This document shows, piece after piece, positions 3,209 to 27,644 of a stretch of DNA of 52,582 bases (positions are counted from its first letter, which is position 1; every line of letters begins with the position of its first letter). The notes under the pieces are model-generated. The model saw only the letters and a program-made list of their open reading frames with translations. It was not told where the DNA came from and did not search any database. A program made the translations under genes and the position numbers. This stretch comes from Phycisphaerae bacterium (GTDB lineage: Bacteria; Planctomycetota; Phycisphaerae; Sedimentisphaerales; Anaerohalosphaeraceae), in the NCBI GenBank assembly GCA_012729675.1, contig JAAYCR010000010.1:1-52582 (forward strand), in the 5' to 3' direction.

Positions 3209-3807
3209 ATCCATTAGAATATTTCCCCACCTAAAAACACCGCTTGTAGTTCAAGCTTCAGCTTGTATTTCAGGCATAACACACTGAAGTGTGAACTACG
3301 AACGGTAATGCTCGAAATTGGCTTTGAATTGGCTTTGTTTTTTTACAGTCATCAGTTGTCAGTTATCAGTAAGCAGTTGTGGAATAAGGGTTTATGGTTC
3401 TTTGCAGAATGGAGAATTGGGTTTGTTTGTTCATTTTTCAGGAGTCAGAAGACAGGAGTCAGAAGATCGAATTTTACTCATTTTTACCACCGAGGACACA
3501 GAGGACACTGAGGGTAGAGATAGTTCATAGTTCATAGTTCATAGTTCTTAGTTCTTAGTTCTTAGTTTTGAGTTTTGAGTTTTTAGTTTTGAGTTGGGGA
3601 GGGGGTAGGAGACAGAAGTCAGAACACAGAACTCAGAATTTCGAAATCTATTATTCAATTTTTGCTCTTTCTTTCACGGCCACGATGGCCGGGCTACGGG
3701 GGGTATTATACCATAAAACAGGCCGAAAGGCAAGGGGGAAGGGATTGACGATTGACGATGGACGATGGACGAAGAGGGGGGGAAGCCGGGTATGGAATGG
3801 ATTTTTC

Positions 3808-3956: not shown

Positions 3957-3973
3957 GATGGAGAGTGGAAAAA

Positions 3974-5956
3974 ATGAAGAGACTATTTCTATTATCAATT
4001 GCCGCTTATTTATGCGCCTCGGGTTTTACCTCGGCAGATACGTTTGGAGGTTATGCGTATTCCGACAACGGCAACGGCACATGCACCATCACCCGCTACA
4101 TCGGTCCCGGCGGAGATATTACCATCCCCGACACCCTCGGCGGTCTGACAGTCACCAGCATCGGAGACCGTGCATTCGAGTACTGGAACATCCTGACCAG
4201 CGTCATTATTCCCGACAGCGTCACCAGCATCGGTAACGGTGCGTTCTATTCCTGCACCAGCCTGACCAGCGTTGTAATTGGTGACAGCGTCACCAGCATC
4301 GGATACGCTGCGTTCGATTGCTGCTTCACCCTGACCAGTATCGTTATTGGCGACAGCGTCACCTACATCGGAGGATCTGCGTTCGCTTCCTGCAAGAGCC
4401 TGACCGGCGTCGTTATTCCCGACAGCGTCACGAACATCGAATACTATGCGTTCTGGGGCTGCACCAGCCTGACCAGCGTCGTTATTGGCAAAAGCGTCAC
4501 CAGCATCGGAGACTCCGCGTTCCAGAACTGCCGCAGCCTGACCAGCGTTGTTATTCCCGACAGCGTCACCAGCATCGGGAACTCTGCGTTCGCTTCCTGC
4601 ACCAGCCTGGCCAGCGTTGTTATTGGCGACAGCGTCATCGGCATCGGAGACTATGCGTTCGAGTACTGCACCAGCCTGGCCAGCGTCGTTATTGGCGACA
4701 GCGTCATCGGCATCGGAATTGATGCGTTCCGTTCCTGCACCAGCCTGACCAGCGTCGTTATTGGCAACAGCGTCACCAGCATCGGACTCCGAGCGTTCGT
4801 TGATTGCACCAGCCTGGCCGGGGTCGTTATTCCCAACAGCGTCACCAGCATCGGAGGATCTGCGTTCTCTTCCTGCGCCAGCCTGACCAGCGTTGTTATT
4901 GGCGACAGCGTCACGAGTATCGGTTCCCGTTCGTTCTATTCCTGCACCAGCCTGACCAGCGCCGTTATTGGCGACAGCGTCACCAGCATCGGAGACGGTG
5001 CGTTCGGGGATTGTTCCAACCTGATGGCTATAACGGTGGATACAAACAATCCCGCCTATGCCAGTTCGGACGGGGTTTTGTTCAATAAGAGCCAAACCAC
5101 GCTTATCCAATACCCGGCAGGGTTAAGTGGGAGCTACGCAATCCCCGACAGCGTCACCAGTATCGAATACAATGCGTTCTGGGGCTGCATCAGCCTGACC
5201 GGCGTCGTTATTCCCGACAGCGTCACGAGCATCGGTTACGGTGCGTTCCTTGACTGCACCAGCCTGGCCAGCGTTGTTATTGGCGACAGCGTCACCAGCA
5301 TCGGACACTATGCGTTCGAGCGTTGCACCAATCTGACCAGCGTCAGTATTCCCGACAGCGTCACCAGCATCGGAGGCTATACGTTCAGGTCCTGCACCAG
5401 ACTGGCCAGCGTTGTTATTGGCGACAGCGTCACCAGCATCGGACACTCTGCGTTCAAGTACTGCACGAGCCTGACCAGCGTCGTTATTGGCGACAGTGTC
5501 ACCAGTATCGGAACCGAGGCGTTCGAGTCTTGTACCAGCCTGACCAGCGTCGTTATTCCCGACAGCGTCACCTACATCGGAGACTATACGTTCGATTCCT
5601 GCACCAGCCTGACCTGCATTTTTTTCAAAGGGACTCCCCCCGCCCTTGGGTGGGATCCGTTCGATGACTGCGAAGCAACGGTTTATTACCTGCCCCAAAA
5701 TGCCGCAAGCTGGCGATGGTTCTTCGGTGGACTGCCAACGGCAGAATGGCAGTTGTCAATTGCTGATCTGAATGAGGACGGCAATGTGGATTTGATTGAC
5801 TTTCTGACATTCGCCGCGGCCTGGCAGGCCGTATCCGGTGTGGATGCTGCATACAATGTCGATTGCGACCTGGCTGAACCGTTTGGTGTGATTGACATCG
5901 CCGACCTGAAGTTGTTTGCCAGTGAATGGCTGATTACACCCTGCCAATTGCAGTGA
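3974..5956 (+). CDS. secreted BspA-type leucine-rich repeat protein with dockerin-like C-terminus
   Basis: This 660-residue exported protein opens with a signal peptide (MKRLFLLSIAAYLCASGFTS, cut near SAD). About 20 repeats of 23 residues follow, with the consensus VTSIG..AF..C.SLTSVVIGDS, the LRR_5/BspA (Treponema pallidum) type found in surface and adhesion proteins. One repeat near residue 360 is interrupted by a longer insert. The last 70 residues carry two calcium-loop-like segments, DLNEDGNVDLIDFLTFAAAW and DVIDIADLKLFASEW-like, which resemble dockerin type I repeats common at the C-termini of planctomycete exoproteins. GGAGAG lies 8 nt before the ATG at 3974; a GTG at 3965 overlaps that site and is less likely. 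The 69-bp DNA repeats invite copy-number change by recombination. Binding partner unknown. Confidence 0.85.
   Translation: MKRLFLLSIAAYLCASGFTSADTFGGYAYSDNGNGTCTITRYIGPGGDITIPDTLGGLTVTSIGDRAFEYWNILTSVIIPDSVTSIGNGAFYSCTSLTSVVIGDSVTSIGYAAFDCCFTLTSIVIGDSVTYIGGSAFASCKSLTGVVIPDSVTNIEYYAFWGCTSLTSVVIGKSVTSIGDSAFQNCRSLTSVVIPDSVTSIGNSAFASCTSLASVVIGDSVIGIGDYAFEYCTSLASVVIGDSVIGIGIDAFRSCTSLTSVVIGNSVTSIGLRAFVDCTSLAGVVIPNSVTSIGGSAFSSCASLTSVVIGDSVTSIGSRSFYSCTSLTSAVIGDSVTSIGDGAFGDCSNLMAITVDTNNPAYASSDGVLFNKSQTTLIQYPAGLSGSYAIPDSVTSIEYNAFWGCISLTGVVIPDSVTSIGYGAFLDCTSLASVVIGDSVTSIGHYAFERCTNLTSVSIPDSVTSIGGYTFRSCTRLASVVIGDSVTSIGHSAFKYCTSLTSVVIGDSVTSIGTEAFESCTSLTSVVIPDSVTYIGDYTFDSCTSLTCIFFKGTPPALGWDPFDDCEATVYYLPQNAASWRWFFGGLPTAEWQLSIADLNEDGNVDLIDFLTFAAAWQAVSGVDAAYNVDCDLAEPFGVIDIADLKLFASEWLITPCQLQ
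4122..5619 (+). repeat. 69-bp coding tandem repeats (LRR array)
   Basis: About 20 units of 69 bp encode the 23-residue leucine-rich repeats. Units recur with blocks such as GACAGCGTCACCAGCATCGG. Variation is concentrated at the exposed positions after VTSIG and before the cysteine. The array is interrupted once, at about 5010-5145. Confidence 0.9.
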
Positions 5957-13249: not shown

Positions 13250-14956
13250 GTGACGAAACGACTGGGCGAATTACTGTGTGAAGGCAACCATATCACAACC
13301 GCACAGCTTGAGGCTGCACTTGAGACGCAGAAGACATCGGGTCACAAGCTGGGGCAGATATTGTGTGACAACAAGGCGATCAGCAATCGTCGTCTGCTGG
13401 AGACGCTGGTCAAGCAGGCCGGACTGGATACAGTGACGCTGGAGGATCGCACCATCGACCGGGACGTGTTGGCGATGGTTCCGGCCGAGGTGGTCAGCCA
13501 ACACAGTCTGATTCCGGTGGAGCGTCAAAACGGTCGGCTGATAGTGGCGATGGCCGATCCGTTTGATCATGAGGCGATTGCCGATTTGCGGCTTCTGACG
13601 GGTCTGGTGATCCGGCGGTGTTACTGCCCGACGTCCGATCTTGAAAAGGCAATTCTGAAATATTACGGCAGCAATGTGGCACGAATGCTGCGTGACTTAG
13701 CGCCGGGCGAAAAGGCCGAAACGTCGGATGTCGAGGTGCTGGAAGGGGATCAGTTGACCACGGCCAAGTTGCATGAACTGGCCCGCGAGCCGAGCTTGGT
13801 CAACCTGGTGAATCTGATTTTGCTGGAGGCGGTGGAGTCGCGCGCCAGCGACGTGCATATTGAACCCTTTGAAAAAGACGTGCGGATCAAGTACCGCATC
13901 GACGGGGTGTTGATCGAAAAATCCTCTTCGCCCAAACGGCTGCACGCGGCGATTGTCTCGCGTGTCAAGATTATGGCCAATATGAACATTGCCGAGCGGT
14001 TTGTGCCGCAGGACGGGCATATCGAGTTTCTCGGGACCAAGGGCAAGATCGACATCCGTGTATCGACCGTGCCGACGATCTTCGGCGAGACGATTGTGAT
14101 GCGTTTATTGGATCGCAGTGCTGCCCTGATCGCGCTGGGCGACCTCGGCATGGACGAACAGACGCTGAAGGGGTATGCGCACTGTCTGGGCAAGTCGCAC
14201 GGGATCGTGCTGGTGACGGGGCCGACCGGCAGCGGTAAGACGACGACGCTGTATGCCTCGCTGAATCGTATATATGATCCCAGCCGCAAGATCATCACCA
14301 TTGAGGATCCGGTGGAATATCAACTTGACGGGATCGTTCAGATTCCGGTCAACCCCCGCCGTGGACTGACATTCGGGCGCGGGCTCCGGCATATTTTGCG
14401 TCAGGACCCGGATATTATCATGGTCGGCGAAATTCGCGACAAAGAGACGGCCGATATTGCGGTTCGCGCCGCGTTGACGGGTCACTTGGTGTTCAGCACG
14501 CTGCATACCAACGATGCGGCCGGGGCGATTACCCGTTTGATCGATATGGGGGTTGAGCCGTTTTTGCTGGCCAGCTCGCTGGAAGGGGTTCTGGCTCAAC
14601 GGCTGGTGCGGAAGATCTGTCCGGCCTGCCGGGAGGCGTATCGCCCCAGCGCGTCACTGCTTGAGAGCCTGAGCAATGCGGACCGCATCGATCCGAATGC
14701 GTCGCTGTATCACGGACGCGGTTGCGATGAGTGTAACCGCACGGGGCTGAGCGGGCGTCTGGGAATCTATGAGTTGCTGCGTGTTACCGAGCAGTTGCGC
14801 AAATTGATTGCGTCGCGTCCGACGCCTGAGCAGATTCTGGCTTCCGCACCACACGACCACGTGACGATGCGGCACAGCGGCGTGGAAAAGGTGCTTGCCG
14901 GGATCACAACCCCCGAAGAGGTGCTGCGTGCGACGCAGGGTGTTGAGGAAGATTGA
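13250..14956 (+). CDS. gspE: type II secretion system ATPase GspE
   Basis: This 568-residue cytoplasmic motor ATPase powers pseudopilus assembly. Residues 1-145 form an MshEN-type N-terminal domain (RLGELLCEGNHITTAQLEAAL; DRDVLAMVPAE). The ATPase core has Walker A GPTGSGKT (324-331), the Asp box IEDPVEYQ, Walker B DIIMVGEIRD (388-397) and the His box TGHLVFSTLHTN. A zinc-binding tetracysteine motif (C457, C460, C492, C495) is present, as in GspE and PilB. Translation starts at GTG with AGGA upstream. It heads a 14.4-kb run of plus-strand secretion genes. PilB is the alternative name, but the downstream gspG-K and gspD order supports T2SS. Confidence 0.93.
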   Translation: MTKRLGELLCEGNHITTAQLEAALETQKTSGHKLGQILCDNKAISNRRLLETLVKQAGLDTVTLEDRTIDRDVLAMVPAEVVSQHSLIPVERQNGRLIVAMADPFDHEAIADLRLLTGLVIRRCYCPTSDLEKAILKYYGSNVARMLRDLAPGEKAETSDVEVLEGDQLTTAKLHELAREPSLVNLVNLILLEAVESRASDVHIEPFEKDVRIKYRIDGVLIEKSSSPKRLHAAIVSRVKIMANMNIAERFVPQDGHIEFLGTKGKIDIRVSTVPTIFGETIVMRLLDRSAALIALGDLGMDEQTLKGYAHCLGKSHGIVLVTGPTGSGKTTTLYASLNRIYDPSRKIITIEDPVEYQLDGIVQIPVNPRRGLTFGRGLRHILRQDPDIIMVGEIRDKETADIAVRAALTGHLVFSTLHTNDAAGAITRLIDMGVEPFLLASSLEGVLAQRLVRKICPACREAYRPSASLLESLSNADRIDPNASLYHGRGCDECNRTGLSGRLGIYELLRVTEQLRKLIASRPTPEQILASAPHDHVTMRHSGVEKVLAGITTPEEVLRATQGVEED

Positions 14957-15043: not shown

Positions 15044-16273
15044 GTGGCGACATTCTCATATAAAGGCATTGACGCCGGCGGACAGGCGGTTTCGGGAACG
15101 GTGGATGCGGTGGACCGCAAGGCGGCCATCGCGGAGCTGACACAGCGTGGACGGTATGCGATGGAGCTGATCGAGGGCAAGGCCGGGGCGGGATTGCTCG
15201 GCGGCATCGGAGGCGAGTCGTCGTCGCATAAGGGCGGTTCGATCCGCAGCAAAGAATTGCTGGCGATCATGGGGCAACTGGCGACGGCGCTGAAGGCGGG
15301 GCTGCCGATGGTCAATGCGCTGCAGATTATCAAGTCGCAGCAGAAGAAAGAGTCATTGTTCGCGCTGCTGGATGAGCTTGTTTCGGCGGTTAGCTCCGGC
15401 GACAGCCTCAGTGAAGCGATGGAGCGGCGGCCGGAATTGTTTGATCGGTTGTCGGTTTCGATGGTGCGTGTCGGCGAGACCGGCGGTATTCTTGAACAGA
15501 CCGCCGAGGAATTGGTCAAGCTCAAGCACCGCGAAGAAAAGGTCAAGTCGAATCTGGTTAATGCGGCGGCGTATCCGATCTTTGTGCTGACGGTGGGTCT
15601 GATCTCCATGGTTGTGATTTTGGTATGGGTGCTGCCCAAGATCATCACGACCATCGGCATCAGCGCCAACATGCTGCCGTTGCCGACGCGGATGCTGATG
15701 GGATTGAGCAACTTTATGCTCAGCTGGGGATGGCTGTGTGCGATCGTTATCATCATCAGCGCTGCGTTGTTTAAGAAATGGAAGCAGACGCCGGAGGGTC
15801 GATTCGGCTGGGACGGTTTTAAGCTCCAGCTTCCGCTGTTCGGGCCGGTGGTGAAAACGCTGGCGGTGGGGCGGTTTGCCCGGACATTGGGAGCGCTGAC
15901 CAAAAGCGGCGTCACGATCCTGGAGGCGCTGCTTGTGGTGCGCGATACGCTGGGCAATGAAGTGCTGGGGCGTCAGATTGACCAGGTCAGTCAGCAGGTC
16001 AAGACCGGACATAACCTGGCCGACCCGCTGGAAGAGTCGGGGATGTTTCCGGCGCTGCTGGTGCAGATCGTTTCGATGGGCGAGCAGACGGGGCGGCTGG
16101 ATGAACTGCTGCTCAGTGCCGCCGATACCTTCGACGAAACGGCCGATACGGTAATGAACCGGTTTTTGGCGCTGTTCCCGGCGATTTTGATCCTGCTTTT
16201 GGCGATGGCGATCTTTTTTATCATCGTTGCGACGCTGCTGCCGATTGTCGGTATGGACTTGAGCGTTCTTTGA
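15044..16273 (+). CDS. gspF: type II secretion system inner-membrane platform protein GspF
   Basis: This 409-residue polytopic protein is the T2SS platform that couples GspE to the pseudopilus. It opens with the usual MATFSYKGIDAGGQAVSG and contains two GspF domains. The first carries LLAIMGQLATALKAGLPMVNAL and SMVRVGETGGIL, the second FARTLGALTKSGVTILEAL and VQIVSMGEQTGRLDELL. Three membrane segments are visible, near residues 178-205, 222-245 and at the C-terminus (ILLLAMAIFFIIVATLLPIV). The start is GTG with a weak AAGAG site. Confidence 0.93.
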   Translation: MATFSYKGIDAGGQAVSGTVDAVDRKAAIAELTQRGRYAMELIEGKAGAGLLGGIGGESSSHKGGSIRSKELLAIMGQLATALKAGLPMVNALQIIKSQQKKESLFALLDELVSAVSSGDSLSEAMERRPELFDRLSVSMVRVGETGGILEQTAEELVKLKHREEKVKSNLVNAAAYPIFVLTVGLISMVVILVWVLPKIITTIGISANMLPLPTRMLMGLSNFMLSWGWLCAIVIIISAALFKKWKQTPEGRFGWDGFKLQLPLFGPVVKTLAVGRFARTLGALTKSGVTILEALLVVRDTLGNEVLGRQIDQVSQQVKTGHNLADPLEESGMFPALLVQIVSMGEQTGRLDELLLSAADTFDETADTVMNRFLALFPAILILLLAMAIFFIIVATLLPIVGMDLSVL

Positions 16274-16825: not shown

Positions 16826-16858
16826 AAATGTTTAATGTTAAATGTTAAATGTTGAATG
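16826..16858 (+). repeat. ATGTTAAATG-type dispersed repeat before gspH
   Basis: Five imperfect copies of TGTTAAATGTT fill the space between gspG and gspH and run into the proposed gspH start codon. The same words occur near 33834, 44397 and 46253. Confidence 0.8.
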
Positions 16859-17482
16859 TGGGTATCGGGTGGCGCCTTCAAGCGCGGCTCGTGGGTGTCG
16901 GTGACGCAGGTGAATAAGTCGATTCAAAAAATTCGTCAATCGTCAGTCGTCAATCGTCAATGCCAAGGCTTTACGCTGGTTGAGTTGACGGCAGCGGCGG
17001 CGCTGCTGGCGCTGTTGACCTCGGCGGCGTTTATCTCATACGCGCAGACGTGGAAGCATTGGGCGCTGCGGCAGGACGCCCAGCGTTTTTACCTGGCGGC
17101 CCGTTACGCGCGGGTCCTGGCGATTGAAAGCCAGCGTCCCTGTGTGCTGATGGTCGTTCCTGAGGAAAAGGCTTATTATATCGTTCAGTCCGTCGAGGGC
17201 GAGGAAGAGATTGCAGTTGTGTCCAACATGCTGCATCGTTCTTCGAAACTCGACGACTCGGTGTCGTTTGACCGTTTTGCGGCGGTTCAGACTGGACTGA
17301 CTGGAGATGTCAGCGGTATTACTTTTCGTCCGGATGGCAGTGCGGATGCGGCACTGGTGCAACTGACCAATGGCGAGCGGTCATTTACCATTCAGATCAG
17401 CGCCGCGACGGCGCAGGCGACGCTGTTGTCCGGTGCAACCGATTCGTATGAGCTGGACCAGATTGACTTGGATGATTTGTAA
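16856..17482 (+). CDS. gspH: minor pseudopilin GspH
   Basis: This is a minor pseudopilin of up to 208 residues. Its cleavage region is RQCQG followed by FTLVELTAAAALLALLTSAAFI. The rest reads as a GspH/FimT globular domain (ARYARVLAIESQRPCVLMVV; ITFRPDGSADAALVQL). The leader before the cleavage site is unusually long, about 38 residues from the ATG at 16856, and is encoded by two dispersed-repeat families: ATGTTAAATG words at the start, and TCGTCAATCGTCAGTCGTCAA words encoding RQSSVVNRQ. Internal GTG codons at 16895 or 16901 would shorten it to about 23-25 residues. None has a convincing ribosome site. The stop overlaps the gspI start. Confidence 0.82.
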   Translation: MWVSGGAFKRGSWVSVTQVNKSIQKIRQSSVVNRQCQGFTLVELTAAAALLALLTSAAFISYAQTWKHWALRQDAQRFYLAARYARVLAIESQRPCVLMVVPEEKAYYIVQSVEGEEEIAVVSNMLHRSSKLDDSVSFDRFAAVQTGLTGDVSGITFRPDGSADAALVQLTNGERSFTIQISAATAQATLLSGATDSYELDQIDLDDL

Positions 17483-17967
17483 TGAATAAAACAGGCAAAC
17501 CATTTCGGAGAGGCGTAAGCCTTCTTGAAACCGTGCTGGCGTCGTCGCTGCTGGGCGGTGCGGTGATGGTGGTCTGCGGCCTTTCGGCCGGCAGTCTTCG
17601 GTCGGTTCGGCTCAACCAGGAATACGAAAAGGCGTGGGACTATATTGAGCGTCAATTGACCCTGATTGACTTGATTGGTGTGCAGACGGTGGTTCAGACC
17701 GGCCAACTTACCGGAGAATTCGAGAGTCTCGATGGTCGGATTTGGGAATGGAACGTCCAGATTGCCGAGTCCGAGTCCGGCATCCCGTTGTTATACGATG
17801 TTCTGATCGGTGTGGAATGGGAGGGGGCCGGCCGTCTGCGGCGGGTGGAGTGCCTGACGCGGATGACGGCACGGAGCACTTCGGTGGATGCGGAACAGGT
17901 GGCTCCCGACGCCGAAGCGGCAACGGAAGGCTCTCAGTCAACGGCGGTACAGGGGGTGAGCCGATGA
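17482..17967 (+). CDS. gspI: minor pseudopilin GspI
   Basis: This 161-residue pseudopilin-like protein has the leader MNKTGKPFRRG and the hydrophobic helix VSLLETVLASSLLGGAVMVVCGL, with Glu at +5. The body is short and divergent. The gene order (H-I-J-K) and size support GspI more than any single motif. The ATG overlaps the gspH stop codon (TAATG), implying translational coupling, and the 3' end overlaps gspJ by 4 bp. Confidence 0.78.
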   Translation: MNKTGKPFRRGVSLLETVLASSLLGGAVMVVCGLSAGSLRSVRLNQEYEKAWDYIERQLTLIDLIGVQTVVQTGQLTGEFESLDGRIWEWNVQIAESESGIPLLYDVLIGVEWEGAGRLRRVECLTRMTARSTSVDAEQVAPDAEAATEGSQSTAVQGVSR

Positions 17968-18686
17968 CTAGAACTCGACGACAAGCCGGTTTTACTTTGG
18001 TGGAACTGATGGCCGCTTCTGTCATTACAGCGTTTTTGGCGATGGTGGCGGTCGGTGGGATGGTCAGTGTCACCAGTGCCCGCAACAGCCTGGACGAGGT
18101 GACAGAGGTGATGGACGAACTGCGGTTTGCGTCCGACCTGTTGCGTCAGGATTTATCGAATGTGTCCCGCGGCCGTCAGATGCTGTTTGAAGGGCTTATT
18201 GAAGAAGGCAGCGGCGTGGAAATACCGCGGCTTCGATTTTGGGCGATTTCAAAGTCCAAAGCCCGGCCGATGCAGCCCGAAGGCGATCTGTACGAGATAG
18301 AATACCTGTTTTTTGAAGGACAGGATGGCGGTACGTATCTGGCCCGGCGACAGTGCCCGATCGTCGGCGTGGAGCAATATGACGACGAAACTGCCGGGGG
18401 CGTGCTGACGAAGATCTCCGAGCAGATTGCATATTTCGGCATCCGGTATTTTGACGGGACGACCTGGTCGTCGATTTGGCCGATTGAGCAGGAGGAGCTG
18501 CCGATGCTTGTTGAAGTGTCGCTGGCATCGCGTCATGTGGACAAAAGCGGCAGGGAAAGGGTTTATTCCAAGCAGGTGATTCTGACATTCCCGCGATTGG
18601 GCGACCAGTCGGAACTGACGGAAGAAGACGATGCCGGAATTGAAGAGATTGAATTTACGGACCCGGAATCGGGATTGGAAATGTAA
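17964..18686 (+). CDS. gspJ: minor pseudopilin GspJ
   Basis: This 240-residue pseudopilin has the leader MTRTRRQAG and then FTLVELMAASVITAFLAMVAVGG. The body includes ELRFASDLLRQDLSNV and the C-terminal beta-rich region typical of GspJ (ISEQIAYFGIRYFDG; PMLVEVSLA), ending in an acidic tail. The ATG overlaps the gspI stop as ATGA. An open frame continues upstream, but the prepilin leader fixes this start. GspJ joins GspI and GspK in the tip complex (known for the family). Confidence 0.85.
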   Translation: MTRTRRQAGFTLVELMAASVITAFLAMVAVGGMVSVTSARNSLDEVTEVMDELRFASDLLRQDLSNVSRGRQMLFEGLIEEGSGVEIPRLRFWAISKSKARPMQPEGDLYEIEYLFFEGQDGGTYLARRQCPIVGVEQYDDETAGGVLTKISEQIAYFGIRYFDGTTWSSIWPIEQEELPMLVEVSLASRHVDKSGRERVYSKQVILTFPRLGDQSELTEEDDAGIEEIEFTDPESGLEM

Positions 18687-18687
18687 A

Positions 18688-19983
18688 ATGCGGCGGCGGT
18701 TGAATAAAAAACGGACCTTTCGGTCGGCGATGGCGCTGGTGGCGGCGTTGTGGGTTTCGGTGCTGATGATGGCGCTGGTCAGCGTCGCGGCCCAGAGCAG
18801 TTTGCTGGACAGCCGTATCAGCCAGATCGAGAACGAGAAACAGCGCAGCCGATGGGCCTGCCGGGCGGGTATCGAGACGGCCATCGGACTGTTGCTTGTG
18901 GACGACCGCACGTACGACAGTTGGGTCGATCTGTGGTCGTACAATCCGCAGGAACTTGAGAACATGGACTTTGGCGGTGTAACGGTTACGGTCGAAGTGG
19001 TCGATGCGGCATCGAAACTGAACGTTAACTCGGCCACACTCCAGCAACTGCTCAGCTTGCCGGATATGACCGAGGACATTGCCGAGGGCATTCTGGACTG
19101 GATTGACAGGGACGATACGATTCGGACCGGCGGGGCCGAGAGAGGATACTACCAGAATCTGGATTATCCCTACTTGCCCCGAAACGGCAGCACACAGACG
19201 ATCCGCGAACTGCTGCGTGTCAGGGGTATTACCGAAGGGCTGTTTTCCGGTATTTCGGAACTGGAAACGCTGTCCGTGGAAAACGAAGGGTGGCTCAACT
19301 ACCTGACCTGTGTATCGCAGGAGTCCAACCTGGACAGTGAGGGGAACGAACGGATCAATATCAACCGCGCGAACACCCAGTCGCTGACCCAGGATTTGGG
19401 GTTGTCGGAAGGTCAGGCTCTATGGGTGACGCAAAATCGTTCGTTCCGGCGGCTGACGGATATGATCGGACAGGCCACGGACACCTCGCAGGGCGCTGCC
19501 CAGACGTCCCAGCAGACTCCTCAAGCGGCACAAGGAGGACAGGCTCAGCAACAGTCTGGCGGCCAGCAACAGCAGGTGGAGCCCGTACCGTTGGATGCGG
19601 CCACCGTGCTGGGGATGGCCGATAAGATTACGCTGACCAATCGTCGGTCTGTAGCCGGCAAGATCAATATCAATACTGCCGGGCTTGTGGTGCTGACGGC
19701 CCTGTTTGACGGCAACCGCGAGTTGGCAGAAAAAGTGTATTCGACACGCGAGGGATTGGGCGGTGCGTTTATAGATCTCAGCGATATACTGATGGTGGAC
19801 GGCATGACACAGGATGTTATGCGTACCTATCTGGATCGTATAGCTATTCGTTCGAGTATTTTTGAAATTCGTGCGACGGCGGTTTCCACTGTGACGGGTC
19901 TGACCTACCGGGTCGAGGCGATCGTCAACCGCGAAGCGTCGCAAGGACAGGTTCTTTATTGGCGTGAAGGGATTGACCGGTGA
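18688..19983 (+). CDS. gspK: minor pseudopilin-tip protein GspK
   Basis: This 431-residue protein begins MRRRLNKKRTFRSAMALVAALWVSVLMM-like, with a pseudopilin-type helix, but lacks the Glu+5 that GspK characteristically lacks. Two GspK/SAM-like helix-hairpin modules follow (LNVNSATLQQLLSLPDMTEDIAEGILDWID; ININTAGLVVLTALFDGN). Between them lies a Gln-rich insert of about 35 residues near 275-312 (QTSQQTPQAAQGGQAQQQSG), not usual for the family. The ATG lies directly after the gspJ stop, 2 nt away. The stop overlaps the gspL start. Confidence 0.88.
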   Translation: MRRRLNKKRTFRSAMALVAALWVSVLMMALVSVAAQSSLLDSRISQIENEKQRSRWACRAGIETAIGLLLVDDRTYDSWVDLWSYNPQELENMDFGGVTVTVEVVDAASKLNVNSATLQQLLSLPDMTEDIAEGILDWIDRDDTIRTGGAERGYYQNLDYPYLPRNGSTQTIRELLRVRGITEGLFSGISELETLSVENEGWLNYLTCVSQESNLDSEGNERININRANTQSLTQDLGLSEGQALWVTQNRSFRRLTDMIGQATDTSQGAAQTSQQTPQAAQGGQAQQQSGGQQQQVEPVPLDAATVLGMADKITLTNRRSVAGKININTAGLVVLTALFDGNRELAEKVYSTREGLGGAFIDLSDILMVDGMTQDVMRTYLDRIAIRSSIFEIRATAVSTVTGLTYRVEAIVNREASQGQVLYWREGIDR

Positions 19984-21392
19984 TACAGACAGAGCAGCAA
20001 AAACAGACAGCTCAGCAAGCTGCCGGCGTCGTGATTTCTACGGCGTCGGGGAAAGCGTATGCAGCCGTCGTCAAACGACGCGGCAGTGAATATGAACGGA
20101 CCTTCCAGTCTACGTTTGAGCTTTCCGAAGGACTGGACAGCATTGTCAAGCATTTGCTTGAAAAAGCCGGAGGCGGATCAATGCCGGTACTGATCGGCTT
20201 GGATTCGGCGCAGATCCGATTTCTGGAGATGACATTGCCCCCGGCGCCGACGGCCCATTTGCCGTCGTTGATTCGTACACAGACCGAGTCCCGGCTGCCG
20301 CTGGACGGCGACCGGATGCAGTTGGCTTGGCGGTTGTCGCCGGCGACGGCGGGATACGACTGTACGGTGGCGGTGGTGCGGCAGGACGTCCTGGATGCGT
20401 CGCTGAAAAAATACAGTCTGAACGGATCGTTGACTGCGATGGTTCCCGATGCGGCGGGTTTTGCCCGGCTGCGAAATATCTGCTTCGCCCCGACACCCCA
20501 GACCTGCCTGGTCCTTCGCCGACGGGCGGATGGGTTTATTCTGCTGCGACTGGAAGGAGATGCACCGGTTCGCTGCGGGGTCATCGCCGTTGAGCCGGCG
20601 GATATGGAGCAGCGGCCGGGTTTGGTCATACAGGAAATAATGATGGAGATTGAGGCGATTGAGTCGAAGGACGACCAGCCATGCCCGGTCTACCTGTGGC
20701 CGGGCGACGATCCATTCATGCGGGATGTTGCCGCGCGTCTTGCCCAATCGGGTCGTCAGGTTGCCGCACTGGAAGCTGATCAGGCTGCGATGCAGCGGAT
20801 TTGTTCGTCGGACAACTCAAGCCTTGGCGGCGTTGAAATAGATGCGGCGGGGCTGGCGATACTGGGACTTTCCAGCACAACGCCGGCGTTTGACTTTTTG
20901 CTGACGCGGCGGTTGGTACAGCCGGCTGAAGAGGCCAAAAAGCGTAAGAAAAAAATGGTCCGCATGGCCTGTATGATCGTCGTGCTTGCGGTGCTGGGGG
21001 TGCTGGTGCATTACGTGAGCCTGACGATTCAAGTCCGTCAACTTCAGCGTGAGCTGGCCGCCGAGGAGAACGGTCTTGTCGCTCAGTCGCTTCTGGGGGA
21101 ACTGACCTATCAGGAAGCGGTGGCGCGGGCGCGGCTGGATGTTCTCGAAATGATCGAAGCTGTTCAGGATAGCCGCGAAGGAATGCTGCTGGACAGCTTG
21201 GAGTTTGAAAAAGGCAAGCCTGTCAAGCTCGTTGCCACTGCCGGCAGCTATGAGCAGGTTTATGCCTTTCAGAAACGGCTGGAAGAGCACGAAGGTGTCA
21301 ATCAGGTTCGTCTGGTTGACCCGCGTCTGGACGACCGTACCCGGCAGGTGCGGTTCACCTTACAATTCCATTATTTTCATTTTACGAAGTGA
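19980..21392 (+). CDS. gspL: GspL-like/PilM-PilN assembly platform protein
   Basis: This 470-residue protein has an N-terminal actin-like cytoplasmic region (VLIGLDSAQIRFLEMTLPPAP; LIRTQTESRLPLDGDRMQLAWRL), a basic stop (KKRKKKMVR), one membrane segment around residues 323-347, and a periplasmic coiled coil plus ferredoxin-like domain (VQDSREGMLLDSLEFEKGKPVKLV). This is the GspL architecture, equivalent to PilM fused with PilN. GspL links the ATPase to the pseudopilus. It starts at GTG, overlapping the gspK stop (GTGA), and overlaps gspM at its end. Confidence 0.82.
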   Translation: MIQTEQQKQTAQQAAGVVISTASGKAYAAVVKRRGSEYERTFQSTFELSEGLDSIVKHLLEKAGGGSMPVLIGLDSAQIRFLEMTLPPAPTAHLPSLIRTQTESRLPLDGDRMQLAWRLSPATAGYDCTVAVVRQDVLDASLKKYSLNGSLTAMVPDAAGFARLRNICFAPTPQTCLVLRRRADGFILLRLEGDAPVRCGVIAVEPADMEQRPGLVIQEIMMEIEAIESKDDQPCPVYLWPGDDPFMRDVAARLAQSGRQVAALEADQAAMQRICSSDNSSLGGVEIDAAGLAILGLSSTTPAFDFLLTRRLVQPAEEAKKRKKKMVRMACMIVVLAVLGVLVHYVSLTIQVRQLQRELAAEENGLVAQSLLGELTYQEAVARARLDVLEMIEAVQDSREGMLLDSLEFEKGKPVKLVATAGSYEQVYAFQKRLEEHEGVNQVRLVDPRLDDRTRQVRFTLQFHYFHFTK

Positions 21393-21931
21393 TGACTATG
21401 AAACCATTGAGCCAACGAGACAAACGAACGCTTAAAGTTACAGTGGCCGCCGCGGTCCTGATTGTCGGGTATTTTTTAGCCTTGGAGCCGATGCTGGCGT
21501 CGTATCATGAGAAGCGCAGCGAACGCGATCAATTGAAGCAGCAACTGGACAGGCTGACGTCCATTCAAAGCGGCATCGGGGCGATTCGCTTCAAGGAACT
21601 GAACGAACGTGTGCCGGTTTATGTGATGCCTGCGGCCGCCGCCGAACAGGGGGTGCTGTTTCGCGACGAACTGACCAGTCAACTCCAGCAGGCCGGGGTA
21701 CAGGCCAGAACGCTTCAGTTGCGCGACAACCGCGGCAAGCGTGAGGACGGCTTTGCCGTTTTGACGGTCGATGTTCAGGGCCAGTGCGGATACGAACAGA
21801 TGCTCCGGCTATTGGCCGATCTTAAGCGTAATCCCTATTACGTCGGCGTGGAGAAGTGTTCGCTTCGCGTCGATACGCGAAACCGAAACACAATGAGCTA
21901 TCAGCTTGCTGTGTACACTTACGCAAAATAG
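21392..21931 (+). CDS. gspM: GspM-like/PilO platform protein
   Basis: This 179-residue bitopic protein has a short cytoplasmic N-terminus, one membrane helix (VTVAAAVLIVGYFLALEPML), a coiled coil (HEKRSERDQLKQQLDRLTSI) and a small periplasmic domain. The size, topology and position directly after gspL match GspM/PilO, the partner that stabilises GspL. Sequence motifs in this family are weak, so the call rests on topology and order. Start codons at 21389 (GTG), 21392 and 21398 (ATG) are all possible; the ATG at 21392 overlaps the gspL stop. Confidence 0.78.
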   Translation: MTMKPLSQRDKRTLKVTVAAAVLIVGYFLALEPMLASYHEKRSERDQLKQQLDRLTSIQSGIGAIRFKELNERVPVYVMPAAAAEQGVLFRDELTSQLQQAGVQARTLQLRDNRGKREDGFAVLTVDVQGQCGYEQMLRLLADLKRNPYYVGVEKCSLRVDTRNRNTMSYQLAVYTYAK

Positions 21932-21946: not shown

Positions 21947-22693
21947 ATGAAGCGCTATTTAAGCACGGTGGATCCCAAAGTACTGGAACGTTTACTGAAA
22001 CTGGGGGCGGCGGGTACGGTCGTCTGGCTGGCGGTTGTGGTGTTCAACGTCGGCGCACAAAGTCTGGACACGCCGGGAAAAGCGGAGACGGCCATTCGAG
22101 AATACGAACGGATCCGGACAGACGTTACCGCCCAGCGGCATGATCCGCGAGCTCAGATTCAGCAGCTCAGCCGTAACAGCCTGTTTAATGCGACGCCCAC
22201 GGTGACGACTACGGCGGTGCGCGTTCAGCCTCAGCTGCCGCAGACGCAGGCGATTTTGGGCGACGCGGTACTGTTCGGTGACCAATGGTATTATACAGGT
22301 CAGACGGTGCAAGGGTATGAGATTGCCTGGATCGGGCCGGATTCTGTTATTCTCAGCCTCGATGGAGTACTTGAGGAACTCGTGCCGTTTAACGTGGAGG
22401 TCAATTCCGGCCAGAATACCCGCGGAACGACCACAGCGGCAGGCTTCGCCGCGCAGCAGTGGCCCGGTGGTATGGGCGGCTGGGGCGGTATGGACGAAAT
22501 GCCTGGCTGGGGCGGCATGGGCGGCGGTATGGGCGAAATGCCTGGCTGGGGCGGCATGGGCGGCGCCATGGGCGAAATGCCCGGTATGGGCGGTATGGGC
22601 GGTATGGGCGAAATGCCTGGCAGGGGCGGTATGGGCGAAATGTCCGGAAGGGGCGGAAGGGGCGGTATGGGCGGCCGGGGCGGCGGAAGATAA
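21947..22693 (+). CDS. GspC-like inner-membrane protein, copy 1, Gly/Met-rich tail
   Basis: This 248-residue protein is the first of three tandem paralogues. Residues 1-12 are cytoplasmic, about 17-38 form a membrane helix, and residues 60-80 carry the shared RAQIQQLSRNSLFNATP. Residues about 100-150 form a small beta domain (ILGDAVLFGDQWYYTGQTVQGYEIAWIG) that resembles the homology region of GspC or PilP, which docks the secretin to the platform. The last 85 residues are low complexity, built from GGMGGWGG and GEMPG units. An AAGAGGTG ribosome site precedes the ATG. Position between gspM and gspD fits the GspC role (inference). Confidence 0.75.
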   Translation: MKRYLSTVDPKVLERLLKLGAAGTVVWLAVVVFNVGAQSLDTPGKAETAIREYERIRTDVTAQRHDPRAQIQQLSRNSLFNATPTVTTTAVRVQPQLPQTQAILGDAVLFGDQWYYTGQTVQGYEIAWIGPDSVILSLDGVLEELVPFNVEVNSGQNTRGTTTAAGFAAQQWPGGMGGWGGMDEMPGWGGMGGGMGEMPGWGGMGGAMGEMPGMGGMGGMGEMPGRGGMGEMSGRGGRGGMGGRGGGR

Positions 22694-22732
22694 TGTCCTT
22701 ACACGTAAAAATATAGATTAAGAGGTATTCAA

Positions 22733-23419
22733 ATGAAACGCTATTTAAGCACGGTGGATCCCAAAATCCTGGAACGATTACTGAAACTGGGGGCGGCCGG
22801 TACGGTCGTCTGGCTGACGGTCATAGTGTTCAATGCCGGCGCTCAAAGTCTGGATACGACGGGAAAAGCAGAGACGGCCATTCGAGAATACGAACGGATC
22901 CGGACAGACGTTATCGCCCAGCGGCATGATCCGCGAGCTCAGATTCAGCAGCTCAGCCGTAACAGCCTGTTTAATGCGACGCCGATCCCGACCACGGAGG
23001 TGCGCGTTCAATCTCCTCAACTGCCGCAGACGCAGGCGATTTTGGGCGACGCGGTACTGATCGGTGACCAATGGTATTATACAGGTCAGACGGTGCAAGG
23101 GTATGAGATTGCCTGGATCGGGCCGGATTCTGTTATTCTCAGCCTCGATGGGGTACTGGAGGAACTCGTGCCGTTTAACGTGGAGGTCAATTCCGGCCAG
23201 AATACCCGCGGAAGGAACACCGCGGCCGGACGCGCGCAGCCGCAGCAGGCCGGACGCACCGCGCAGCCGCAGCAGCAGAACGGTCGCTTCGCCCAACCTC
23301 AGACAGAACAGACCGGCCGCGCCGCACTGCAGCAGCGCCCCGGCGGTATGGGCGAAATGTCCGGCAGGGGCGGAAGGGGCGGTATGGGCGGTATGGGCGG
23401 CCGGGGCGGCGGAAGATAA
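22733..23419 (+). CDS. GspC-like inner-membrane protein, copy 2, Gln/Arg-rich tail
   Basis: This 228-residue paralogue is nearly identical to copy 1 through the membrane helix and the homology-region-like domain (about residues 1-155). The tail differs: an Ala-Gln-Pro-Arg segment (AGRAQPQQAGRTAQPQQQNG) comes first, then a short Gly/Met end (GRGGRGGMGGMGGRGGG) that matches the end of copy 1. The 39-bp spacer before it is almost identical to the one after it (37 of 39 bases), so the duplication included the intergenic DNA and ribosome site. All three copies keep an intact reading frame. Confidence 0.75.
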   Translation: MKRYLSTVDPKILERLLKLGAAGTVVWLTVIVFNAGAQSLDTTGKAETAIREYERIRTDVIAQRHDPRAQIQQLSRNSLFNATPIPTTEVRVQSPQLPQTQAILGDAVLIGDQWYYTGQTVQGYEIAWIGPDSVILSLDGVLEELVPFNVEVNSGQNTRGRNTAAGRAQPQQAGRTAQPQQQNGRFAQPQTEQTGRAALQQRPGGMGEMSGRGGRGGMGGMGGRGGGR

Positions 23420-23458
23420 TGTCCTTACACGTAAAAATATAGATTAAGAGGTGTTCAC

Positions 23459-24184
23459 ATGAAACGCTATTTAAGCACAGTGGATCCCAAAATCTTGGAA
23501 CGTTTGCTGAAACTGGGGGCGGCCGGTGCGGTCGTCTGGTTGACGGTCATGGTGTTCAACGCCGGCGCACAAAGTCTGGACACGCCGGGAAAGGCGGAGA
23601 CGGCCATTCGAGAATACGATCGGATCCGGACAGACGTTTCCGCCCAGCAGTATGATCCGCGGGCTCAGATTCAGCAACTCAGCCGTAACAGTCTGTTTAA
23701 TGCGACGCCGACGCCGACCACGGAGGTGCGCGTTCAAACTGCTCAACTGCCGCAGACGCAGGCGATTTTGGGCGACGCGGTACTGATCGGCGATCAATGG
23801 TACTCTGTTGGCCAGACGGTGCAAGGGTATGAGATTGCCTGGATCGGGCCGGATTCTGTTATTCTCAGCCTCGATGGGGTACTGGAGGAACTCGTGCCGT
23901 TTAACGTGGAGGTCAATTACGGTCAACCTGCCCGCGGCACTGCGCAGCAGGGCGGGCGCGCCGCACAGCAGCAGCGACAGAGGCCCGGCGGCATGGGCGA
24001 AATGCCGGGCGGCATGGGCGGTATGGGTATCATGGGCGGTTTTGGCGATTTCACAATTGATCGAGTTAATGATTTGCGTAATCGTTTTGAAGGGATGGCA
24101 CCTGACCAGCGACAGGATATGCTTAATCGCTTTGTGGGTGGTTCACCGGAAGAACGCATTCAGATGATAAGAGAATTTTTTTAG
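23459..24184 (+). CDS. GspC-like inner-membrane protein, copy 3, with a folded C-terminal extension
   Basis: This 241-residue paralogue shares the N-terminal 150 residues with copies 1 and 2 (MKRYLSTVDPKILERLLKLG; VPFNVEVNYGQ). Its tail has only a short Gln and Gly/Met stretch, then a distinct ending of about 45 residues (DFTIDRVNDLRNRFEGMAPD, then QRQDMLNRFVGGSPEE) that looks helical and is absent from the other two. Minor changes fall in the homology domain (QWYSVGQ instead of QWYYTGQ). It is the copy next to the secretin gene, and may be the ancestral form that binds GspD (inference). Confidence 0.75.
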   Translation: MKRYLSTVDPKILERLLKLGAAGAVVWLTVMVFNAGAQSLDTPGKAETAIREYDRIRTDVSAQQYDPRAQIQQLSRNSLFNATPTPTTEVRVQTAQLPQTQAILGDAVLIGDQWYSVGQTVQGYEIAWIGPDSVILSLDGVLEELVPFNVEVNYGQPARGTAQQGGRAAQQQRQRPGGMGEMPGGMGGMGIMGGFGDFTIDRVNDLRNRFEGMAPDQRQDMLNRFVGGSPEERIQMIREFF

Positions 24185-24203
24185 GAAATTGGACAGATTA
24201 ATT

Positions 24204-27200
24204 ATGAAGCGATCAACACTAACACTGAGCGTATTGGGGATTGCCGGTCTGTGTCTTGCCTTGATTTTCTTCAGGGGCACAGGGGCATCCGAAACAGATT
24301 TGACAGTCATTGAAGAGCCGCCGGTGGAAATACAGCTGCCGGTTGAGACAACTGTCCCGGTTTCCGAAGAGGCAGAGCCGGTTTCCGAGGGGGCAGAGCC
24401 GGTTTCCGAAGGGGCAGAGCCGGTTTCCGAGGGGGCAGAGCCGGTTTCCGAGGGGGCAGAGCCGGTTTCCGAAGAGGCAGAGCCGTCTGCTGAGGAACTT
24501 GCCCCGCCTGTCGAAACAATGGAGCCGCCTTTTGAGGACATGCCGCAGTCGCTGCAGCAGATACAGCAGATGTTTGGACAGTTCGGCGCCGCCATGGGTG
24601 GTGCGCAACGCGGCACGCAACGCGGCGGGCAGCGCGGCGGGCAGCGCGGCGGCATCGAATATCTTGACCGATTTGCCGGCCCGGCGGCCGTTTACGCCGG
24701 GGACGTCGGCGACCCGAACCAGCCCACGGAAGCGGTCAATCTCAACAATGTTGAGATGCGTCAGATTATTCAGAAAATCGCCGATTGGACCGGTAAGCCC
24801 GTACTGCCTGTCAACGATGAGATGATGCAGACCCGGGTGACGATTTTTTCGCCCAAGCTGGTGACACGCTCCGAGGCCCTTTCGCTGCTGATTATGGCGC
24901 TGCATGCCCGCGGCATTGTGGTTGAGCAGTTGGACAATCGCGTGATGCTGCGTCCGCTGTCGTCAATTCGGCAGCAGAACATCCCGACGGTGGGACCGGA
25001 TGAGTCGTTGTCCCGCTATGAAGACAAGACGCAGATTGTTGAAAAGTGGTTCAAGCTCAATGCTTACAGTCCCTCGCGCCTGCTTCAGATTGTTACGCCG
25101 CTTATCGCCGAGTACGGTTATGCGGTTGCGGACGAAAGCACGTCTCGTATAGCGATTATCGACACCGTGGAAAATCTGCTGCGCATCGAACGTCTGATCC
25201 AGCAGTTGGATGTCGCTGATGCCAGTCAGGAATTTGAGAAGATTATCGAGCTGCGTCATGCCGATCCGGCTGAGGTGGTGCAGATCATTCAACTGATCCT
25301 GGCCGATGCTCAGGCCGCTCAGCAGGTCGCTCAGCCGCAGGCCACCACGACGGGCCGTGGCGCGCAACAGCAGCAGGGTGGACGGGGCGGCCGCGGCGGA
25401 CAGTCACAGCAGCAGCAGATGCAGATGGGCGGCTTCGGCGGCTTCGGCGCGCAGCAACCGCAGCAGCAGCAGCGTGGCGGTGCGGGGGGATCTGCAGCCT
25501 CCGTCGCTGTGTCCGGGATTGTGCCGATCCAGGTTCGAATGATTCCGCTGGTCCAACAGCGATGGATCATTGTACGCGGCAGCCATGATGATATTGATCG
25601 TGTTGAAGAGTGGATTTCCCGACTGGATTTGGAAGACGCCGATGAAATGAAGCAGACGGTCGTCCAGGTCCGGTATGCCAATGTGACCGAAGTGGTGCAG
25701 ATGGTGCGGAATACGCTTCAGACGATGCCCGGCATGGATCTGAAGACCAATATCATCGTCGAAGCGCTCGCGCAGACCAGTCAAATCGTTATATACGGCA
25801 ATGACATAAACCGTGCAACGGTGGAGCGGTTGATCGCCCAGGTCGATCTGCCCAAGGAAGATTTCTTCGAAGAGCGGACGTTTCAACTGAAACATGCCGA
25901 TCCCGATCAGCTCAAGACCATCATTGAGGAACTCTATAGCGAAACCTCAGGCACGACGTCGACTCAGCAACTTCTCACCGGGCGAGGGGGCACCGGGCGG
26001 ACGTCGAGTACCTCGTCGGCCACAGGCAATCCTGAAGATCTGGTCCGTGTGATTTCGTATGCGATGCGCAAACAGATTACGGTCATTGCCTCGCCGCAGA
26101 ACATGGAACGCATTACCAAGCAGATTGAAGAGGAGTGGGACAGGCCTCTGGATATCGAGCTGGACCAATACCGTATTATCACCTTGAGCAATTCCGACCC
26201 GGTGAAAATGGCCGATCTGCTCAAAACACTGTTCAGTCAGGAAGGCGCTACGTCGTCGTCGGGCAGCACTTCCACGCGGAACCTACAGCAGATGCTCGGC
26301 GCCAGCTCGACATCGACGGCGACCGACCGGCAGAAGATTATCGGTTCGCTGTTCGGGATGGTGACGTTTGAGCCGGTGCCTGACACCAAGAAGCTTCTTG
26401 TTATCAGCCAGATTCCGGAAGCGTACGAAGTGGTCAAGCGTCTCATTGAAAAGCTCGATGCCCGCGATGAGGCGGATGTGCCGACCGTCATCACCCTCAA
26501 TTACGCCGACCCGGAGGCGCTGAGTGATCAATTGAATGCCATCCTGAATCCGGATGGTTCGACCGCCACCATCCAGCGCAGTGTCCGCGGCCTCAGCGCT
26601 TACAGCACCGGCACCTCTCAGGCGGTAAGTACCAGTGAAGAAGGCAGCGGCACCATTACCCCGTGGTGGACGCGGCAGCAGCAGGATACGACCCGGATGC
26701 CTGTCAGCAATCTGCTTGGACGCATTCGTTTTATTCCGGTGCATCGCAGTAAGGCGATCCTTGTACTGGCACCGCCGGAATATCTCGAAGATGTTCGGGC
26801 ACTGATTGCAGACCTTGACCGCCCCGGGATGCAGGTGATGATCAAGGTAGTGATCATGGAAATCAACCTGACCGATATGTCGTCGCTGGGTCTCCAGATA
26901 AGTTCCGGTGGGCTCCCATATGCTCTGAGCGCCTTTAGTACGCTGGAATATCTCGGTCCTGAAGCAAGCGCTAGGCATTATGCTACTTCTCTGGAAGGTG
27001 ACTTGAATGTACTGGTGGATTTGCTTATCAAAAATGTCAATGGGCGTGTGCTGAATCAGCCGACCCTGTGGACCAAAGACAACGAAGAGGCCGTTTTCGT
27101 CAAGGGTCAAAAGGTTGCTTTCATCACTGGGACGCAGACCGCCAATACCGGCTCCACACAGCAGAGTGTCTCATTTGAAGATGTCGGTGTGACGTTGCGT

Positions 27201-27644
27201 GTCCGGCCGAACATTACGCCGGAAAAGGCAGTGGATCTGATCATCAATCTGAATATTTCACAGGTTGATGGTAGCTTATCACAAGAAAACCCGCCGCGGT
27301 CCAACCTGGACACCACCAGCCGTCTGATTATCAATGACGGACAGTCCGTGATGATGGGCGGGATCCTGACCCAGAAAGACTCGCTCACGGTGCACAAGCT
27401 TCCGCTTTTGGGCGATTTGCCTCTTCTGGGCGGATTGTTCCGCCATGAGGTGGTCGATAGCGGCAACGCTGAAATGCTGATATTTCTGACGCCTTATGTC
27501 GTAGATGACGAGATTCTCACTTCTCTGCCGGCCGACCCGAAGGCGTTTGAAGTGATCGAAACCGCTCGCCGCCGAATGGAAAGTAACGCCGAGTCGCTCA
27601 ATTCGATTTTCGGCGATATTACTGAATCCTTTCAGGAGAACTAA
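24204..27644 (+). CDS. gspD: type II secretion system secretin GspD, unusually large
   Basis: This 1146-residue outer-membrane secretin is well above the usual 650-750. After an N-terminal signal or anchor helix comes a linker with seven 7-residue units (PVSEGAE) and a Gly/Arg/Gln patch. Next are an N0-like domain (VNLNNVEMRQIIQKIADWTGK) and several N1-type domains (for example KIIELRHADPAEVVQIIQLIL, FQLKHADPDQLKTIIEELY, VITLNYADPEALSDQLNAIL), two with Gln/Gly-rich inserts. The secretin core ends classically (VSFEDVGVTLRVRPNI; LPLLGDLPLLGGLFRHE). The chosen ATG is the one with the signal-like helix; a TTG at 24189 is in frame. A hairpin follows the gene. Confidence 0.92.
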   Translation: MKRSTLTLSVLGIAGLCLALIFFRGTGASETDLTVIEEPPVEIQLPVETTVPVSEEAEPVSEGAEPVSEGAEPVSEGAEPVSEGAEPVSEEAEPSAEELAPPVETMEPPFEDMPQSLQQIQQMFGQFGAAMGGAQRGTQRGGQRGGQRGGIEYLDRFAGPAAVYAGDVGDPNQPTEAVNLNNVEMRQIIQKIADWTGKPVLPVNDEMMQTRVTIFSPKLVTRSEALSLLIMALHARGIVVEQLDNRVMLRPLSSIRQQNIPTVGPDESLSRYEDKTQIVEKWFKLNAYSPSRLLQIVTPLIAEYGYAVADESTSRIAIIDTVENLLRIERLIQQLDVADASQEFEKIIELRHADPAEVVQIIQLILADAQAAQQVAQPQATTTGRGAQQQQGGRGGRGGQSQQQQMQMGGFGGFGAQQPQQQQRGGAGGSAASVAVSGIVPIQVRMIPLVQQRWIIVRGSHDDIDRVEEWISRLDLEDADEMKQTVVQVRYANVTEVVQMVRNTLQTMPGMDLKTNIIVEALAQTSQIVIYGNDINRATVERLIAQVDLPKEDFFEERTFQLKHADPDQLKTIIEELYSETSGTTSTQQLLTGRGGTGRTSSTSSATGNPEDLVRVISYAMRKQITVIASPQNMERITKQIEEEWDRPLDIELDQYRIITLSNSDPVKMADLLKTLFSQEGATSSSGSTSTRNLQQMLGASSTSTATDRQKIIGSLFGMVTFEPVPDTKKLLVISQIPEAYEVVKRLIEKLDARDEADVPTVITLNYADPEALSDQLNAILNPDGSTATIQRSVRGLSAYSTGTSQAVSTSEEGSGTITPWWTRQQQDTTRMPVSNLLGRIRFIPVHRSKAILVLAPPEYLEDVRALIADLDRPGMQVMIKVVIMEINLTDMSSLGLQISSGGLPYALSAFSTLEYLGPEASARHYATSLEGDLNVLVDLLIKNVNGRVLNQPTLWTKDNEEAVFVKGQKVAFITGTQTANTGSTQQSVSFEDVGVTLRVRPNITPEKAVDLIINLNISQVDGSLSQENPPRSNLDTTSRLIINDGQSVMMGGILTQKDSLTVHKLPLLGDLPLLGGLFRHEVVDSGNAEMLIFLTPYVVDDEILTSLPADPKAFEVIETARRRMESNAESLNSIFGDITESFQEN
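24357..24503 (+). repeat. 21-bp coding tandem repeat in gspD
   Basis: Seven units of 21 bp (consensus CCGGTTTCCGAGGGGGCAGAG, variants with GAAGAG) encode PVSEGAE or PVSEEAE in the periplasmic linker of the secretin. The high identity suggests recent slippage. Confidence 0.9.

Follow-up and report, generated by a model that had tools for sequence, protein, structure and literature searches.

In published GspC proteins a cytoplasmic part, a transmembrane (TM) helix, a linker and the homology region (HR) come first; a second linker then leads to a PDZ or coiled-coil domain (PMC3169554). The Klebsiella type II secretion system (T2SS) has about 12 PulC, which link its platform to the 15-fold secretin, and each PulC HR binds one N0 domain independently, without lateral contacts (PMC6882859). 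The PDZ domain of EpsC is reported to be required for the secretion of VesB (PMC12369372). The genes investigated here share with GspC, PulC, XcpP and EpsC the N-terminal TM helix, an HR of the same fold (3oss, 6hcg), the position directly before gspD and, in copy C, a predicted C-terminal domain beyond the second linker. In contrast, three tandem copies are present in one operon and two of them have no C-terminal domain. Copy C carries a short three-helix module with no recognised PDZ, and the scores lie below the Pfam and NCBIfam cut-offs.

The analysed DNA, called the window in the following, is one contig of 52,582 bp (52.6 kb; G000:C91) from the 99.9%-complete genome (2.8 Mb, 96 contigs) of an uncultured planctomycete of Sedimentisphaerales type. 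A complete T2SS operon was found on its + strand, from the start of gspE at 13250 to the end of gspD at 27644, with the gene order E-F-G-H-I-J-K-L-M-C-C-C-D; the three gspC copies are located between gspM and gspD (Table 1). The assignment of gspE and gspF is clear despite NCBIfam scores below the cut-offs, and gspG, gspI and gspJ were placed via weak profile matches, the prepilin motif and position. For gspD the Pfam families Secretin, Secretin_N and N0 all scored above cut-off; besides the N0 domain the protein has a long low-complexity N-terminal region. Upstream of the operon, positions 3965-5956 encode a protein of 663 aa in which leucine-rich-like 'SVVIGDSVTSIG' units are repeated and the C-terminal stretch is dockerin-like; from its sequence it is a candidate secreted protein.

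Table 1. T2SS genes and gspC-related features in the window
Feature	Position	Strand	Evidence or description
gspE (ATPase)	13250..14956	+	NCBIfam TIGR02533 E=7.5e-184, 612 bits, below cut-off 630
gspF	15044..16273	+	NCBIfam TIGR02120 E=5e-99, below cut-off
gspG-like major pseudopilin, 140 aa	16399..16821	+	prepilin-type N-terminus FTIIELV (sequence inspection), operon position
gspH-like pseudopilin	16856..17482	+	Pfam GspH and N_methyl above cut-off
gspI-like pseudopilin	17482..17967	+	NCBIfam XpsI weak, E=1e-7, below cut-off
gspJ-like pseudopilin	17958..18686	+	NCBIfam gspJ weak, E=7.7e-8, below cut-off; prepilin motif above cut-off
gspK	18631..19983	+	Pfam T2SSK_1st and T2SSK above cut-off
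gspL-like (PilM/PilN-type)	19980..21392	+	Pfam PilN above cut-off; position
gspM-like	21389..21931	+	Pfam T2SSM E=2.8e-5, just below cut-off; position
gspC copy A	21947..22693	+	248 aa; TM and HR core, Gly/Met/Trp low-complexity tail, C-terminal helices absent
39-bp tandem repeat, 4.0 copies	22484..22637	+	encodes Gly-Met tail stretch of copy A
spacer A-B, 39 bp	22694..22732	+	includes ribosome-binding region of copy B
gspC copy B	22733..23419	+	228 aa; TM and HR core, A/Q/P/R-repeat tail ending Gly-Met, C-terminal helices absent
spacer B-C, 39 bp	23420..23458	+	2 differences from spacer A-B
gspC copy C	23459..24184	+	241 aa; TM and HR core, disordered linker, C-terminal three-helix module
HR beta domain of copy C	23741..23902	+	residues 95-148; VIA-align 3oss_C; pLDDT 93-96
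C-terminal three-helix module of copy C	24056..24181	+	residues 200-241; similar tail in relatives
gspD secretin	24189..27644	+	NCBIfam TIGR02517 356.8 bits, above cut-off 351.35

The first-pass annotation had described three intact paralogues with about 150 N-terminal residues in common, nearly identical 39-bp spacers and differing C-termini. The description was confirmed. The three open reading frames contain no stops or frameshifts, are 90-92% identical across the first ~153 residues and diverge beyond, and the 3' ends and spacers of copies A and B are nearly identical. An origin of the 39-bp spacer from the 3' end of gspM was rejected (local match score 18, shuffle p ~0.03), other sites in the window having scored higher. 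Between the cores 27-39 nt of ~459 differ in pairwise comparison, with dS values of 0.156 (AB), 0.238 (AC) and 0.184 (BC). All three cores are under purifying selection, with a dN/dS of 0.20-0.23 between them and more synonymous than nonsynonymous change (Fisher p <= 1e-4). Given these values for nucleotide differences and dN/dS, the likeness of the cores is not due to chance. Within the HR only four positions vary, residues 95, 110, 116 and 117 of copy C.

The informative core sites are mixed: 22 group A and B against C, 17 group B and C against A, and 10 group A and C against B. Together with the near-identity of A and B at their 3' ends and spacers, this looks like repeated exchange among the copies. 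Gene conversion could keep the cores alike, so that the age of the duplications is uncertain; a formal dating was dropped, since conversion of the cores makes dS unreliable. An assembly artefact, which had been named as the finding that would overturn the triplication, is unlikely, because every copy is marked by numerous substitutions of its own and by a distinct tail, and all three lie on a single 52.6-kb contig of a 99.9%-complete genome.

The shared core had been compared with the GspC/PilP homology region, and its assignment as a GspC-type HR is supported by structure prediction. In the AlphaFold model of copy C (40-row alignment), a TM helix at residues 10-40 and a short helical stem precede a six-stranded beta domain at 100-145 with a pLDDT mostly of 93-96, behind which come a low-confidence linker and three helices. 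The low overall pTM of 0.31 is what domains connected via flexible parts should give. Copy A was modelled with the same core, its TM helix likewise predicted at residues 10-40 after a short N-terminus, and without an ordered tail; a hydrophobic N-terminal stretch is present in all three copies. With VIA-align the predicted HR of copy C was matched to GspC of E. coli (3oss_C) with Z 8.3 and an rmsd of 1.4 A over 54 of 65 residues. Further matches were GspB 4wfw (Z 7.0), 6hcg_e (Z 6.1) and 7oio (Z 5.7). The top rows include GspC 3oss, GspB 4wfw, PilP and PulC, LspC also matches, and ranks 1-5 of Foldseek are all GspB/GspC. The fold matches thus lead to GspC, GspB, PilP and PulC and not to an unrelated family, which would have contradicted the earlier comparison.

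Sequence profiles recognised the three copies poorly. PF11356 was the best family (E=1.4e-4 to 0.12, 12.7-22.1 bits, cut-off 27), the NCBIfam GspC model TIGR01713 reached 20.1 bits (cut-off 101.6), and the match to Pfam T2SSB was weak. Across the whole genome no match to PF11356 was obtained at E <= 0.001, after which the family was searched with an in-house profile (A3); in the PDB this profile gave only a weak match to GspC (7oio, E=0.13). The lineage shows that the planctomycete T2SS, which standard profiles recognise poorly, has a connector architecture of its own.

GspB serves as an accessory scaffold distinct from GspC and usually accompanies GspA. GspB/OutB proteins (T2SSB HR domain) have an HR-type fold matching the model (4wfw), but the window genes stand where gspC is expected, in an operon in which no further gspC was detected. 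This position argues for gspC rather than GspB. PilP of type IV pili shares the HR-like beta fold (Z 5.7-6.7); it is a lipoprotein without TM helix, whereas the window copies have a TM helix and stand in a T2SS context. In locus L106 of another contig (G000:C67) a weak HR-like match was seen at 2996-3643, in a TM protein encoded just before pilB-, pilT- and pilC-like genes; this protein probably corresponds to GspC/PilP in a type IV pilus. Besides GspD of the window, six further secretin-domain matches were detected, on contigs C40, C33, C13, C54 and C90 (two). In locus L107 a TM protein containing a poly-Pro stretch is encoded ahead of a secretin of 1295 aa.

Beyond the core the copies differ in composition and predicted order. 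The tail of copy A consists of 44% G, 17% M and 4% W and is predicted to be disordered (pLDDT < 50). Copy B has an A/Q/P/R/G-rich tail with repeats of an A/Q/P/R stretch and a Gly-Met stretch at its end. Copy C ends with a short Gly-Met linker, comprising one AQQ-rich and one GGMGEMPG-like stretch, and a helical extension of ~41 residues, for which helices at 200-212, 215-227 and 230-240 are predicted (pLDDT ~84-94). No PDZ match was seen in copy C with Pfam, with NCBIfam or in the predicted structure. The C-terminal domain is absent in copy A according to the model and in copy B according to its sequence. In a DNA pattern search of the genome only one match to the Gly-Met repeat, with 2 mismatches, was found outside this locus.

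Related proteins follow the plan of TM helix, HR, variable linker and helical module with a SPEER-type motif. Compared with the published domain layout (PMC3169554), copy C represents a complete GspC plan with a helical C-terminal module. Copy C keeps the helical module found in single-copy relatives and looks ancestral; copies A and B appear to have lost it. In the simplest account both arose from a C-like gene: the 3' module was lost, and different parts of the linker were unequally expanded.

The expectation that T2SS operons carry one gspC applies to the congeners with a complete locus, but not to the order. Among 57 gspD-anchored loci from named genomes of related bacteria, 45 showed gspC; one copy was present in 33/45, two tandem copies in 12/45 and three in 0/45, so that a search for the same triplication in relatives, as suggested in the first-pass annotation, was negative. 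Of 59 dereplicated loci, 35 have a single gspC, 23 have two and one, the window, has three; loci from two-copy genomes had been added to this set on purpose, and it is therefore enriched for doubles. Two congener loci (L003, L004) show a complete M-C-D arrangement with a single gspC ending in the helical module, and a third (L002) is broken by the contig end, where further gspC copies are possible. A single-sequence search of 40 relatives yielded one orthologue per matching genome in genus and family; this query missed second copies in some relatives, which were later recovered by the profile. Three full tandem matches were found nowhere else among the matches listed, neither for 161 genomes of the order nor for a class sample of 397 genomes. 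The trio is known from one genome of its species and could be strain-specific and transient. The titles and abstracts searched in the open-access PMC literature mention neither tandem gspC paralogues nor a planctomycete GspC. The triplication is the extreme case of a recurrent gspC expansion, in which the docking core stays alike and the tails differ.

The core tree places the window copies in a single clade (100/100), grouped with the single-copy congeners. At two-copy loci, copies in first and in second position are spread over the tree, and the starred branches force at least 10-11 label changes; thus duplication, or later homogenisation, occurred many times. The paired gspC-like genes of Sedimentisphaerales-type genomes (e.g. 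L044, L066, L090) resemble the trio in their position between gspM and gspD, the TM and HR core, the differing tails and, in some, the homogenisation of the core. They differ from it in number, being two, and most pairs combine a W-type with an R-type helical tail; a third gene, for a TM helix and a helical tail without HR, often follows. In the window all three copies contain an HR, and two have no helical tail. The two main tail types, W-type (DPLAWxG...KWN...) and R-type (Gly/Arg-rich, SPEER...), were assigned by regular expression and by eye. One of each is present in 18/23 two-copy loci, and the R-type tail is the more basic one in 17/18 of the mixed-type pairs.

The paralogues of L090 and L092 differ by 4% of nucleotides in their cores and by 27% and 36% in their tails, and from one genome to the other the cores diverge by 24%. 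Comparison of the first-copy tails of L089 and L092 gave a difference of 9%, that of first- with second-copy tails 34%. These divergences indicate cores homogenised within a genome and tails that remain type-specific, most strongly in this one genus; in others the pattern is suggestive. At the two-copy locus L080 the tail of the first gspC is strongly basic (net charge +22) and resembles neither common type. In many loci of the sister family an extra small gene was observed between the gspC copies and gspD (L041:3260-3760, L066:5036-5605, L068:5078-5665, L062:5152-5571). It encodes a TM helix and a SPEER-type helical tail without HR, has no Pfam match above cut-off, and may belong to the connector set as a member with a tail only.

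The most likely arrangement is one secretin shared by several connector variants. Since their HR domains are nearly identical, copies A, B and C would all bind the ring of N0 domains formed by the one GspD encoded next to them; as only four HR positions vary, the N0-docking surface is probably common to them. The three would be present in mixed or alternative occupancy of this secretin, which should be sterically easy because each HR binds one N0 independently (PMC6882859). Copy C would contribute the C-terminal module, with A and B as connectors without it; should this module touch the platform or cargo, such a contact would be missing from A and B. With the extra copies the connectors would change in number and composition, but would not select another secretin. 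Alternative or hetero-oligomeric connectors, as proposed in the first-pass annotation, are plausible and compatible with the published architecture. We regard this explanation as a whole, an intact trio docking on the adjacent GspD with mixed or alternative occupancy, as reasonably probable.

Nearly identical HR cores would also be expected if only dosage mattered, i.e. if the copies were equivalent at the HR, raised the amount of connector and had tails that are neutral, drifting linkers. The A and B tails are indeed tandem repeats, that of A predicted to be disordered, and the linkers between HR and helices are of low complexity and variable in all relatives. Two-copy relatives, however, keep their tail types distinct (18/23 pairs with W-type and R-type), and in one genus tails match orthologues over paralogues beside homogenised cores, which is unexpected for neutral tails. 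This argument is drawn from the relatives and not from the window itself; dosage alone is a somewhat unlikely explanation. Copies A and B might instead be recent redundant duplicates heading for loss and kept by chance in this strain. Their congeners are single-copy, both lack the C-terminal module, and three full tandem matches occur only in this genome among the matches listed for 161 genomes of the order. Nevertheless, a dS of 0.16-0.24, a dN/dS of ~0.2 and the absence of stops and frameshifts point to constraint long after duplication, unless conversion from C took place, and we consider such redundancy clearly unlikely.

The tails are the most divergent part of the three copies, and GspC is among the components linked to the secretion of particular substrates in proteobacteria, partly via its C-terminal domain. 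Both facts would suit a machine steered to different cargo by the tail of each copy. This is very unlikely, as the tails of A and B are Gly/Met or Ala/Gln repeats, in A without predicted structure, both are devoid of the only structured C-terminal element, and nothing in the sequence links any tail to a substrate. Service of different secretins encoded elsewhere is highly improbable. Seven secretin matches, including GspD of the window, would offer partners, but some of the other secretin or pilus loci have their own connector-like TM protein, and HR domains differing at so few positions make distinct partners unlikely.

The mixed or alternative occupancy preferred here may have a counterpart in the whole order. 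PulC is reportedly present at a ratio of 2:1 to PulL/PulM, which would leave room for a pair of distinct GspC subunits. Tentatively, the T2SS of this order might be built from at least two distinct GspC on one secretin, with cores evolving in concert, tails evolving apart and a hetero-oligomeric connector cage in the periplasm that has a division of labour; the trio would then be an independent expansion in which the module was dropped in two copies. The repeated duplication of gspC in this lineage, with a homogenised docking core and differing tails, constitutes a natural experiment on the role of the GspC C-terminus and, in the same way, on whether the connector ring can be mixed.
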